Shown piece after piece: positions 19,179 through 46,724 of a stretch of 64,000 nucleotides of DNA. The position numbers were made by a program, and so were the translations under genes. Numbering within the stretch: position 1 is the first letter of the stretch; each line of letters opens with the position of its first letter. The stretch lies in the NCBI RefSeq assembly GCF_014218355.1, contig NZ_AP023368.1, positions 1,244,001 through 1,308,000 of the forward strand, given 5' to 3'. Origin of the DNA: Anaerocolumna chitinilytica. Lineage in GTDB: Bacteria; Bacillota; Clostridia; Lachnospirales; Lachnospiraceae. The notes beneath the pieces were generated by a model. That model was not told where the DNA came from and ran no database searches. It was given only the letters and a program-made list of their open reading frames with translations.

Positions 19179-19334
19179 TTGACATTTAAGGAAGGAGTAG
19201 TTACAATAATTAAAAATAATAATATATGTTAATCCGGTTGGGCAGGTAACTGCTTCAAGATGATAAGCTTATGGGTGGAGAGCTTCTATTAGAAGTTCTC
19301 TGCTTTTTTATTGTGAGTAGAAAGGATGATGATA
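19179..19334 (+). promoter_or_regulatory. Promoter and riboswitch-like leader of the cation exchanger gene
   Basis: TTGACA (19179-19184), a 17-bp spacer and TACAAT (19202-19207) give a strong promoter with a start near 19214. The 120-nt leader contains a GNRA-capped stem (GCAG-GTAA-CTGC, 19242-19253), a self-complementary ATAAGCTTAT segment and a GGGTGGA stretch. A terminator hairpin follows at 19278-19307 just before the ORF. ATAAGCT and AGCTTcTAT could pair as an alternative that breaks the terminator. Terminator-controlled sensing of an ion is likely; the Na+-I (DUF1646) class is one candidate, which I cannot confirm by eye. Confidence 0.6.
19278..19307 (+). terminator. Leader terminator hairpin
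   Basis: GAGAGCTTCT (19278-19287) pairs with AGAAGTTCTC (19291-19300) with one G-U pair and a 3-nt loop, followed by TGCTTTTTTATT. It lies 27 bases before the exchanger start and downstream of that gene's own promoter, so it is best read as an attenuator. Confidence 0.75.
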
Positions 19335-42930: not shown

Positions 42931-44322
42931 TCAGTTTTGCTCCTTCTCTTTTAACTCTTTTAATACAACATTTAACATAGTCAGAAAACAAGCAGTTCCG
43001 CCAATAAAATTGGAAACAGGCTCCGCTAAAAAAACACCGGTAATACCGGAGTTAAAAAAGTGAGGCAGTATTAGTGTTAAAGGAACTACTATTACAATCT
43101 TTCTTAAGATAGAGAAAAACACCGCATATTTGGCCTTTCCCAAGGCCACAAAGACGGATTGACCGGCGAATTGCAGGGACATCATAAAGAAACCGAAGAA
43201 ATAAATCCGAACAGCAGGCATGGCAGCCTGAACCAAGGCAGGGTTATGATTAAATATCCGAATAAAAAAATGAGGAAATGCATGTAATAATCCCCAGGCA
43301 GCAAGGGTATAGGAAATACAGGTAACGGATACGAACTTGATTGACCTGCGCACCCTGCTATACGCTCCCGCACCGTAGTTATAACCTATAACCGGCTGGG
43401 AACCATTTGTCAGACCGGATACCGGCATGGATATGATTTCACGAATAGAATTTAATACTGTCATAACACCTACATATAAATCTCCCCCATAGAATTGAAG
43501 GCTTTTATTACACACAATCTGGACAATACTATTTGTGATTGCCATCATAAAGCCCGACAGGCCAAGGGCGGAGATTTTTTTGACGGTGGAGAGCTGAAGA
43601 CGGATATTTGAGAACTTTAATCGAATCAGAGCCTTTTTACTGATAAGAAAACGAAAGACCCAGAAGGCGGACAGAAACTGCGAAATTACCGTTGAAAGAG
43701 CAGCACCGGTAACACCCATATGAAAAACAAAAATAAAAATCGGATCAAGAATAATATTAGTAATAGCACCAAGCAGTACTGTTGCCATACCGATACCGGA
43801 AAAACCTTGGGAATTGATAAAGCTGTTCATGCCAAGGCTTACCATTACAAAAAGATTCCCCAGAAGATATATGCTGATAAAAGCATTGGCGTAGGGAAAA
43901 GTCTCATTGCTTGCACCGAAAAGATATAATAAAGGACGCTTCAGCATAAACCCAAGAATAGTCAGAAAAACAGAAAATAATAACAGTAGGGCAAAAGAGT
44001 TGCCCATAATCCGTTCCGCCTCCTCCCTGTCACCTCTGCCTCTGGCAATAGAGCAAAGAGGGGCACCACCCATACCAAAGAGGTTGGCAAAAGCTATAAT
44101 AATAGTAGTGATGGGAAGTGTAAGGCCGATACCCGTCATAGAAAGAGTTGCATTCTGTGGAATCAATCCGATATACACCCGGTCAATAACGCTATACAAA
44201 ACATTAACCAATTGTGCCAGAGTCATGGGAAGCGCAAGCCTTAAAATATTCTCAACCACGCTTCCTTTTGTAAAATCATTGATTACCTGCTCTTTTCTGG
44301 AGCCTGATCCAAATTTTTTCAA
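42931..44322 (-). CDS. MATE family efflux transporter
   Basis: The 463-aa protein starts at TTG 44322-44320 (KKFGSGSRKEQVINDFTKGS) with only a weak AGAAG upstream. It has twelve membrane helices in two halves; ILRLALPMTLAQLVNVLYSV and the repeat ISALGLSGFMMAITNSIVQI open them. DRVYIG, GAPLCSIARGRGD and GSQPVIGYNYGAG are typical MATE loops. It exports cationic drugs or metabolites using Na+ or H+. It converges on the ABC exporter gene with a 13-base gap. Substrate unknown. Confidence 0.93.
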   Translation of the reverse strand: MKKFGSGSRKEQVINDFTKGSVVENILRLALPMTLAQLVNVLYSVIDRVYIGLIPQNATLSMTGIGLTLPITTIIIAFANLFGMGGAPLCSIARGRGDREEAERIMGNSFALLLLFSVFLTILGFMLKRPLLYLFGASNETFPYANAFISIYLLGNLFVMVSLGMNSFINSQGFSGIGMATVLLGAITNIILDPIFIFVFHMGVTGAALSTVISQFLSAFWVFRFLISKKALIRLKFSNIRLQLSTVKKISALGLSGFMMAITNSIVQIVCNKSLQFYGGDLYVGVMTVLNSIREIISMPVSGLTNGSQPVIGYNYGAGAYSRVRRSIKFVSVTCISYTLAAWGLLHAFPHFFIRIFNHNPALVQAAMPAVRIYFFGFFMMSLQFAGQSVFVALGKAKYAVFFSILRKIVIVVPLTLILPHFFNSGITGVFLAEPVSNFIGGTACFLTMLNVVLKELKEKEQN

Positions 44323-44783
44323 AGTAATTCTTCTTTCTTCTGTCTAAGATAATTAGTAATTGCAGATATTTATAAACCTTCTAAAAAGAAAATCCAGTGT
44401 AAAACTATAATTCAATGCCTGAATACGTAGATACCATTTTCCATATAGGTAAATATATGAGATTTTTTTATTGTAGCATAGAATTTTTTAAAGTGAAAGA
44501 TTTTACAAGAAAGAGATAGATTATATAACTAAAAAATATAGAAGTGAAATGGAAAAAAACGGAAGAATACTTAATAAAGTGATAAATAACTATAAGGAAA
44601 AGTAATAGGCTGTAGAACAAAGTAATAAATATAATAAAATGTAAAAAAATAAATTTGTAAGAATAAACAACAGTAAATAAAATGGTTTGTAGTTTAAACT
44701 ATAGTAAAAAAAGTCAACATAAAAAAGTAGAAAAAATAAGAATGACTAACAGAACAAACAATATAAATAAAGCTATACAGAAT

Positions 44784-44831
44784 ATAAATCCATAAAGCTA
44801 TAAATCCATAAAGCTATAAATTCATAAAACT
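44784..44831. repeat. Three tandem 16-bp repeats in AT-rich gap
   Basis: ATAAATCCATAAAGCT occurs twice, then ATAAATTCATAAAACT, at 44784-44799, 44800-44815 and 44816-44831. They lie in a roughly 500-bp purine- and A-rich stretch (44380-44880) that contains no gene I can support. Confidence 0.7.
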
Positions 44832-44882
44832 ATAAAGAAAGTAAACTCACAGTATAATTTTAAATAATACATGCAACAAGCA

Positions 44883-45113
44883 GATGACCGGAAGGTATGT
44901 GGGGGAGTTGGGTCTCGAGAGGACCATAATGACACTAAAGCCGCAGAAAATGTAACTAGGAAAAATAGTGCCATGTTTGAGCGCAGAAAATTATCGCGTA
45001 CATAATGGTAACAGCGAGTTTGGCACTATTTTGACTGTCAGTTACATTTTCTGCAGCTCTAGTGGAATAAGGTTCTCGAGTAACCCAACTCCCCCACATA
45101 CCTTCCGGTCATC
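44883..45113. repeat. 231-bp fold-back inverted repeat (MITE-like or structured RNA)
   Basis: The outer arms (44883-44913 and 45083-45113) are perfect 31-bp inverse copies, opening GATGACCGGAAGG. Inside them pair CTCGAGA with TCTCGAG, CACTA and AGC with GCT and TAGTG, GCAGAAAATGTAACT (44943-44957 with 45040-45054), and AAAATAGTGCCA (44962-44973 with 45021-45032). The tip holds further short palindromes. No ORF is credible. The arms are GC-rich against an AT-rich background. It resembles a non-autonomous fold-back element or a very stable hairpin RNA. Confidence 0.85.
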
Positions 45114-45254
45114 GTCCGTTCGTCAAAAAATAAATTCCAAAAAATCAAAAGGAAAATACGTCCATGCATCTATTAACTGTAAAGTGAGATACTATAAAAG
45201 AATAATTTTATTTAACATTTCCGCGATAGATTGATTTGCACCATGGAGGTTAAT

Positions 45255-46724
45255 ATGGAAGAAAAACGTGAAAAAGGCTTATCGGCCTCGCAGCTGACAA
45301 TGATGGCCATCGGCTCAGTTATCGGAGGTTCCTTCTTTTTGGGATCTTCAGTAGCCATACACTCTGCCGGGCCTTCCATTATTATTTCTTATATATTAGG
45401 AGGAATTCTTGTCTATTTTATCTTATTTGCCCTTTCTGAAATGACTGCCAATAATCCGGGAGCCGGATCATTTAAAGGGTTTGCGGCAGCAGCTTATGGA
45501 CAAGGAGCGGGTTTTATAACAGGCTGGGTATACTGGACAGGTATGATACTTGCAATGTCCAGTGAGGCAACTGCAATTTCTATTTTGGTAAAGAACTGGT
45601 TTCCGAATATTTCAACAACCATCGTCGGAACTTCCATTATAGTTGGAGTTACCCTGGTTAATTTATTGGGAGCCAGCAGACTGAGTAAGTTAGAGAGCAG
45701 CTTGGCTGGCGTAAAGCTTATAACGATTGTTGCCTTTATATTAATGGCACTGCTTTTAATACTTGGTTTGATAAAAGGTACTACGACAGGAGGAACAGTT
45801 AATTATACACGTCCGGCTTTTCTGTCTGAGCCGTTTTTTGCCAATGGCTTTCGTGGGCTTGCCGGCAGTATGTTAATCATCATGTTTGCCTATGCCGGCT
45901 TTGAAGTTGTAGGATTAGCAGCCTCAGAGGCAAGGCAGCCCAAGGTTACTGTTCCAAAAGCAATCCGTAAAATTGTAGTTCTGCTGCTCAGTCTTTATAT
46001 TATATCAGTTGGAGTATTATTATTCCTGATTCCGACAAATGACATTCGTGAAGATACCAGTCCTATGGTGGCAGTCTTAAACCGCTTTGGATTTGGCTGG
46101 GCCGGGACGGTGTTGAATATTGTTTTGATCACTGCTATCCTGTCAACCATGCTGGCATCAATGTTTGGTTTGGGACGAATGATACGTTCCTTGGCGGATG
46201 AAGGCCAGGCACCCGGGTTTTTGAAGGATAAAAAGGAAGTACCCTATAAAGGAATTGTTTTTTCCGGTATATGTATGCTTCTGGGGCTGTTTATCGGGCT
46301 TTTGCTGCCTCAGGTTTATTTGTTTTTAATTAGTGCAGGCGGGTTTTCCTCCCTTTTTACCTATGCAATGATTATGGCTTCCCATATTCATTTCCGAAAA
46401 AAACATGGTAAACCGGAGGATAAGCTGAGGCTTGCCGGATTTCCTTATTCTTCTCTATTTGTACTGCTATGCCTGATTGCTGCCATTGCCTGTATGCCTT
46501 TTATCAAAGGACAGGGCGACGGATTAATTGCAGGGCTTGCCATCTTAGGCTTTTATGGAATTTCATATTTCTTTATGAAGTTGTTCCAAAAAGCAAGAGG
46601 GGAAAAGAAAAGCTCATATAGGCCAGAACAGAGGTTTCAATATGAAATATCAAAAGAATTATCTGAGACGGATAAGGAATCAGATAATTCAGCAAATAAG
46701 AATAAAAAACGTGAAGATTCTTAA
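45255..46724 (+). CDS. APC-family amino acid permease
   Basis: ATG 45255 follows GGAGG; ATG 45243 overlaps that site and is rejected. The 489-aa protein has twelve hydrophobic helices. The unwound first helix reads MMAIGSVIGGSFFLGSSVAI (GxIGxG/S-type substrate motif), with EMTANNPGAGSFKGFAAAAY and FAYAGFEVVGLAASEARQPK typical of the family. A polar tail of about 45 residues ends it. It is likely a proton- or sodium-coupled amino acid importer or exchanger. The long inverted repeat ends about 140 bp upstream. Substrate not readable. Confidence 0.9.
   Translation: MEEKREKGLSASQLTMMAIGSVIGGSFFLGSSVAIHSAGPSIIISYILGGILVYFILFALSEMTANNPGAGSFKGFAAAAYGQGAGFITGWVYWTGMILAMSSEATAISILVKNWFPNISTTIVGTSIIVGVTLVNLLGASRLSKLESSLAGVKLITIVAFILMALLLILGLIKGTTTGGTVNYTRPAFLSEPFFANGFRGLAGSMLIIMFAYAGFEVVGLAASEARQPKVTVPKAIRKIVVLLLSLYIISVGVLLFLIPTNDIREDTSPMVAVLNRFGFGWAGTVLNIVLITAILSTMLASMFGLGRMIRSLADEGQAPGFLKDKKEVPYKGIVFSGICMLLGLFIGLLLPQVYLFLISAGGFSSLFTYAMIMASHIHFRKKHGKPEDKLRLAGFPYSSLFVLLCLIAAIACMPFIKGQGDGLIAGLAILGFYGISYFFMKLFQKARGEKKSSYRPEQRFQYEISKELSETDKESDNSANKNKKREDS

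Follow-up and report, generated by a model that had tools for sequence, protein, structure and literature searches.

The long fold-back at positions 44881 to 45118 of the window, the whole analysed stretch of 64,000 nucleotides of Anaerocolumna chitinilytica DNA, represents one copy of a non-coding repeat that is dispersed through its own genome and those of some relatives. The repeat is present in many copies and in particular lineages, its arms covary, and its mismatch motifs and tip are conserved. Near-identical paralogues occur in one relative, and one copy has decayed. The reading that we prefer, to which we give about an even chance, is a non-autonomous dispersed repeat whose active form is a folded single strand, most likely DNA, and which has a putative reader protein.

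Structure and copies of the hairpin

The outer arms of 31 nt at 44883..44913 and 45083..45113 of the plus strand are exact reverse complements, as read from the sequence and as found by a repeat search. The same search recovered nested arm pairs at 44883-44928/45068-45113 (46 nt, 87%), 44922-44957/45040-45075 (36 nt, 81%), and 44962-44973/45021-45032 (12 nt, 100%). The RNA fold of 44863-45133 was calculated as –139.9 kcal/mol on the plus strand and –142.1 kcal/mol on the minus strand, where shuffles averaged –62.9 and –63.2 (z –16.3 and –19.8); none of 200 dinucleotide shuffles was equally stable. The DNA fold of 44881-45118 gave z values of –17.3 and –18.2 against shuffles. The near-perfect fold-back of the preliminary description, with its perfect 31-bp outer arms and its inner paired blocks in matching order, is real and far more stable than the shuffles. 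Its limits, 44883-45113, hold for the fold-back itself; the unit kept between copies is slightly longer, 44881..45118 on the plus strand (238 nt, CAGATGA...TCATCGTCCG, CM score 227.1 bits), with ends taken from the A1 alignment of 64 copies. The earlier statement that no open reading frame fits was nearly right, as frames of 50 aa (minus strand) and 88 aa (plus strand) cross the hairpin and nothing gene-like was seen. The 16-bp tandem repeat noticed at the same time was found by repeat detection at 44783..44836 of the plus strand (3.4 copies, 94% matches), in the AT-rich left flank and outside the repeat family.

The CM built from the A1 alignment and blastn were used to count copies. In its own genome, blastn gave 24 matches to the fold-back, counted per strand, and the CM search recovered 32 or more copies of full length besides others that were weaker or partial, with 150 of 1164 candidates scored; the 70 CM rows of this genome include the same hairpins read on the opposite strand. 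The preliminary description had proposed such a BLASTN count and held that a single copy with neither paired substitutions in relatives nor a transcript would speak against both a mobile element and a functional RNA; the element is multi-copy. Within the genus, CM matches were found in 10 of 15 genomes and in none of the other five. With both strands counted, four other species of the genus yield 43–76 matches each; G000, G011, G012, and G014 have 63–76 CM rows each and G010 has 43, in a shorter form of mostly 208–220 nt. The five other genus genomes have 1–4 CM rows each. At the family level, 12 of 397 genomes matched under strict filters, including the own one. No match to the whole element was obtained in the plasmid and phage collections searched, and the exact motif pair was found in none of the viral contigs in which it was looked for.

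Copies are often paired at a few hundred bases to 6 kb, mostly divergently (minus then plus), as at L095, L099, L112, L165, L166, L046, L054, L179, and L030, the last being a same-strand pair. G012 and G014 also have a second subfamily (214–238 nt, 76–92 bits) in the vicinity of main copies (L143 3457-3675; L154 1823-2041; L158 4424-4642; L159 1994-2212; L161-L163). At L186 of G010 (2523-2780), an extra nested hairpin was seen by eye to be inserted in the tip.

Covariation, mismatch motifs and the nature of the folded strand

The A1 alignment was prepared from 71 extracted rows by dropping five repeats, one incomplete copy, and one copy with a misplaced end. In its 64 copies, 64 of the 79 pairs vary on both sides with pairing kept; the paired substitutions for which the preliminary description had suggested a covariance check are abundant. 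Of all cells, 95.3% are paired, compared with 76.4% after shuffling and 37–44% with the partner slid, a figure biased in favour of the structure because the structure was taken from the same alignment. Regular expressions for motif 2 (at most two mismatches) and the right tip half (at most one mismatch) served to select the A1 copies, part of the loci coming from an exact-pattern scan. The conservation of these two parts in A1 is partly due to that selection, in which motif 1 and the left tip half played no part.

Tandem GA/GA mismatches are found at three places. Motif 1 consists of CGAG at 44916..44919 and CGAG at 45077..45080, where GA/GA is present in 63 of the 64 A1 copies and in 73 of the 88 distinct, CM-chosen copies of a second set, A2. 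Its flanking pairs vary while GA/GA stays (TGAG/CGAA, TGAA/TGAA, CGAG/CGAG). Motif 2 consists of ATGACAC at 44929..44935 and GTGGAAT at 45062..45068, with GA/GA in 55 copies of A1, partly motif-selected, and in 71 of A2. At the third, apical place the counts are 63 and 86. According to the A1 alignment, CTAG at 44956..44959 lies opposite a 3-nt bulge of the right arm, CT-GTC-AG at 45035..45041 (GYC in many copies). This bulge and the tip TGTYTGAGC...GCGAGTTT are conserved among the A1 copies. The left half of the tip, TGTTTGAGC at 44974..44982, has TGAGC in 62 of 64 copies and is also found in other genera. It is followed by a variable insert of 31 nt (44983..45013), in place of which some copies have a short loop, and by the right half, GCGAGTTTGG at 45014..45023, where GCGAG is present in 64 of 64 copies, this being the half used for picking A1. 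The unpaired 3' edge GTCCG (45114..45118) leads across copies into a C-rich, G-poor tail (C 0.40 and G 0.06 over the first 20 nt, 101 copies), which is weak in the window copy. All these parts are given on the plus strand (CAGATG...CGTCCG), which was taken, from the sequence, as the strand presumably folding for a purpose, since the mismatches would be C.T on the minus strand.

Covariation is the usual proof of a functional RNA. Here it is accompanied by signs that point to DNA, namely the GNA loops of the tips, the equality of G-T and A-C in the outer arms, and arms that match each other at places where a mismatch is retained in relatives. Over all A1 cells of the plus strand, G-T exceeds A-C (187 against 69, or 99 against 66 with p 0.012 without three fixed wobble positions). 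This excess counts against the DNA reading, because RNA would give the same one. In the outer 21 pairs, however, G-T and A-C are equal (22 against 18, p 0.64).

The tip was searched for in other genera with the pattern TGTYTGARC-N(1-8)-GYGAGTT, which matched in 58 of 392 genomes of the order and in 37 of 398 of the phylum, two samples that share a few genomes. Single matches mean little, since a backward control pattern also matched in 26 and 10 genomes, mostly once. At least three matches were found in 24 genomes of the order for the tip pattern compared with two for the control, and in 17 compared with none in the phylum. In the order, G635 gave 95 matches, the highest number per genome, G700 gave 34, G585 31, and G455 30. 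The arms around 47 tips, in 40 stretches from five genomes, were scored for pairing; 46 scored at least 30, with a median of 55.9, whereas the control with a shuffled right arm had a median of 6.1 and a maximum of 26.3. Among the copies listed, the arms around the tip-pattern hairpins of other genera differ between copies. The tip motif locates such hairpins in many genera, and the search for a reader or mover protein thus becomes a concrete experiment by co-occurrence or pull-down.

Of 156 tips whose loop has 12 nt or fewer, 101 have a flanking stem. Tips of viral contigs, many of which have no long stem, had been found by a pattern with fixed GNA and were left out of this count. The loops of the 101 stem-flanked tips, a non-independent sample with many tips from G010, were GNA in 58, GNNA in 20 (GNRA in six of these), and other in 18, while the inner pairs were unpaired in five. 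The inner two tip pairs are mostly GC/GC and in some cases AC/GT, viral loci included. GNA or GNNA loops on G-C pairs are known as very stable DNA mini-hairpins, with a Tm of 78 °C for GCGAAGC (PMC4686876). When GNA or GNNA on at least two G-C pairs was taken as the mark of such a mini-hairpin, its loop type was present in 78 of the 101 tips. The window copy has its 31-nt insert instead of a GNA loop, and its DNA argument rests on relatives, as about 30 nt stand in its tip and in most copies of its type. ViennaRNA loop energies gave no GNA advantage in the sets compared and did not discriminate between DNA and RNA. We favour DNA over RNA for the folded strand.

The main alternative at this point is a multi-copy structured RNA, either a small RNA or a cis-element, whose read-through transcripts fold and are bound by a protein or cut, for example by RNase III. 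The strong covariation with conserved internal loops and the G-T excess on one strand suit it, and RNAs often contain tandem sheared G.A pairs. Comparable motifs have been catalogued as candidate RNAs (PMC2864571, PMC11109978). The preference of the tips for GNA over GNRA loops (58 against 6) and the balanced outer arms argue against it. Rfam gave no match at gathering score at the element or at the tips of 17 relative loci, and in evalue mode, run on six loci, weak matches only. Moreover, the sequences preceding 101 copies share no promoter-like motif at a constant distance, and of the four classes of promoter-like sites counted, the one directed inwards from the right side is the least frequent (38 of 101). 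The window copy has no terminator-like site, and the orientation of copies to their neighbours is not fixed. The stable small RNA of the preliminary description is kept as an unlikely explanation, with these points against it.

Probable mobility, neighbouring genes and the matching of the arms

A mobile hairpin repeat is suggested by near-identical paralogues, by relatives that lack the repeat at the corresponding gene, and by the decay of one copy. Paralogues in G010 are up to 97% alike over 219 bp. Upstream of the orthologue of the window's permease gene, no CM match was found in 10 relatives (1.5 kb covered); G011 carries a separate copy on the other side of this gene. At lepA, the element was found by CM in 4 of 14 loci (G010, G011, G012, and G014), one locus being cut short. 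One G014 copy is half deleted. Filled and empty sites of sister species were compared at two loci, neither of which gave a clean pair; G014 showed unrelated upstream DNA at one and the half-deleted element at the other. In sister species, many copies pair at 91–100% identity, some with the same downstream gene, and such conserved places may reflect a host function rather than selfish spread.

Several candidate movers and targets were considered. The Y1 tyrosine transposase PF01797 was rejected, with no match in the three copy-rich genomes G000, G010, and G011; G012 has one match below the cut-off and G014 has fragments. Around 38 stem-bearing tips, no protein family was present in more than three loci, and the threes came from homologous proviral contigs. 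L282, L294, and L342 are three such contigs, which carry the tip hairpin among homologous genes; some tip-hairpin copies may travel in prophages. Insertion inside terminator hairpins, prompted by L181, L188, L192, and L154/L143, was dropped because no clear excess was seen overall (flank-to-flank pairing in four genomes, own means 6.7–7.2 against 6.5–7.0 in controls).

The MITE-like transposon of the preliminary description fits in that the element is multi-copy and is absent upstream of the same gene in relatives that hold this gene. It fits less well in that the arms vary between copies and stay complementary, and that neither a target-site duplication nor a transposase was found. In its full form, this explanation supposes that a DDE transposase moves the element as a double-stranded MITE, with arms matched by mutational template switching alone and a functionless single strand. 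Dispersed copies and near-identical paralogues agree with it, as does the matching of one arm to the other. In seven of the 64 A1 copies (five one way and two the other), motif 2 is fully Watson–Crick through an exact match to the opposite arm; some of these copies are mutually orthologous, and the seven represent fewer events. The mechanism is known, since template switching can repair stems in one event (PMC8794818). However, the terminal inverted repeats are not constant. Close to their ends, the copies largely have only GATG/CATC in common, covariation affects the outer 21 pairs, and the terminal bases are unshared between the two families, CAGATGA...TCATCGTCCG and AAGGCAGT...ACTGCCG. Visual inspection of 24 flanked G010 copies revealed no target-site duplication. 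Template switching would also erase the mismatch motifs, and motif 1 is kept in nearly all A1 copies and most A2 copies. We consider such a MITE distinctly unlikely.

Template switching probably contributes to the matching of the arms. Among 23 pairs of G012 and G014 copies, matched by identity rather than by gene order, 11 double Watson–Crick changes were found against about 0.35 expected by chance, five of them in one pair (L171/L052). That mismatches persist in motif 1 and the tip of most copies argues for selection in addition to template switching.

The neighbours of the hairpin in the window are a MATE gene (42931-44322, minus strand) and, divergent from it, an amino-acid permease gene (45255-46724, plus strand, with a start codon of our choice). 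Pfam assigned these two and two further neighbours, an ABC exporter and a DUF5662 protein. A retron msd, as suggested in the preliminary description, is not supported: these four scanned neighbours include no reverse transcriptase, and around the 38 stem-bearing tips no protein family is seen at more than three loci. An intrinsic terminator, in which a T-run would follow the hairpin, is likewise not supported, with zero terminator-like sites in 44300-45300. Elsewhere in the window, a Na+ riboswitch aptamer (RF03071) was detected above gathering score at 19236-19284 of the plus strand (43.7 bits). Inspection by eye showed a different long hairpin with another tip in G007 (L429), at most 330 nt ahead of the start of the orthologous permease gene. 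It may belong to a second hairpin family that behaves alike.

A host regulatory or boundary element was also considered, in which the hairpin and its C-rich, G-poor tail would stand before promoters and block read-through or modulate the next promoter. The composition of the tail, the conserved places across species, and the promoter counts are in its favour. To the right of 79 of 101 copies, a promoter-like site scoring 9.5 or more lies within 200 nt, with the –35 at 40–79 nt in 52, compared with 58, 53, and 38 for the other three side and strand classes; the counts are non-independent, as sister-species copies are included. On the other side, seven scanned downstream genes differ (amino-acid permease, YitT, LysR, ABC exporter, DHDPS, ThiF, and LepA), which speaks against a fixed regulon. 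The right-hand frame points away from the copy in 81 of 125 cases, towards it in 43, and is missing in one, by simple frame calls rather than gene predictions. In the 13 lepA upstream regions read, promoter-like sequence is kept with or without the element, and in the window no plus-strand promoter-like site was found by the scan between the element and the permease gene. This explanation appears to be the least probable of those weighed.

According to the preferred reading, the folded plus strand would be single-stranded DNA, exposed at replication or as a transfer intermediate, and a putative protein would recognise the tip, GA-GC-loop-GC-GA above the internal loop TGTYT/GTT. The long arms would need pairing alone, so that their letters could drift while selection, together with template switching between the arms in replication, restored the match. 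As a non-autonomous unit, the element would spread between genes, in many cases to sites directly before promoters or beside gene ends. A wider proposal, possible though on balance doubtful, is a broad element class of Bacillota, and perhaps beyond, that lives and acts as folded single-stranded DNA. Its conserved tip, a DNA mini-hairpin that contains tandem sheared G.A pairs, would be read by a putative non-Y1 protein, and its nearly free arms of 100–250 nt would be matched by arm-to-arm copying.

Comparison with known systems

The kind of element is already known from long-stem mobile repeat candidates such as MRSC-65-2, and from ERIC and REP. No earlier report of this hairpin family or its tip was found in the open-licence papers searched, supplements aside, and a prior description is possible. 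The MRSC-65-2 motif is a mobile or repeat sequence candidate with the conserved repeat UYCCGG, for which the authors also consider a DNA form (PMC11109978). Like the present hairpin, it has a single long stem, strong covariation, and dozens of copies per genome in many taxa (PMC11109978). In contrast, UYCCGG is present in 10 of our 64 copies on the plus strand and in eight on the minus strand, and twice in none on the plus strand. In a comparison by description only, the tip TGTYTGA..GAGTT is absent from the account of that motif in PMC11109978.

REP and CGTC-REP sequences are likewise dispersed extragenic palindromes, and CGTC stands at the right end of our element; CGTC-REPs are described without a known transposase (PMC3733652). 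Unlike REPs of 20–40 bp (PMC3733652), the hairpin element has about 208–250 nt. It also differs from REP or REPIN sequences with a RAYT, as G000, G010, and G011 have no Y1 match and CGTC is missing from most G010 copies. ERIC, YPAL, bcr1, and other stem-loop repeats are similarly intergenic, stem-folding, and present in many copies of about 100–200 bp (PMC2267715). Judged by description, the present family is set apart from them by arms that vary freely around fixed mismatch motifs and a fixed tip. Dictyoglomi-1 RNA (RF01703) is similar in length (236 model positions), and a relative of the element matched it with 31 bits. However, the gathering score is 150 and the match lies on the strand opposite the tip, so that it probably reflects hairpin likeness only.

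For STAXI, single-stranded DNA and RNA were also weighed by loop type, and its authors preferred RNA (PMC2864571). STAXI is a pseudoknot whose UUCG loops were used to argue for RNA, whereas the GNA loops of the present hairpin family argue for DNA, the mirror image of the same argument.
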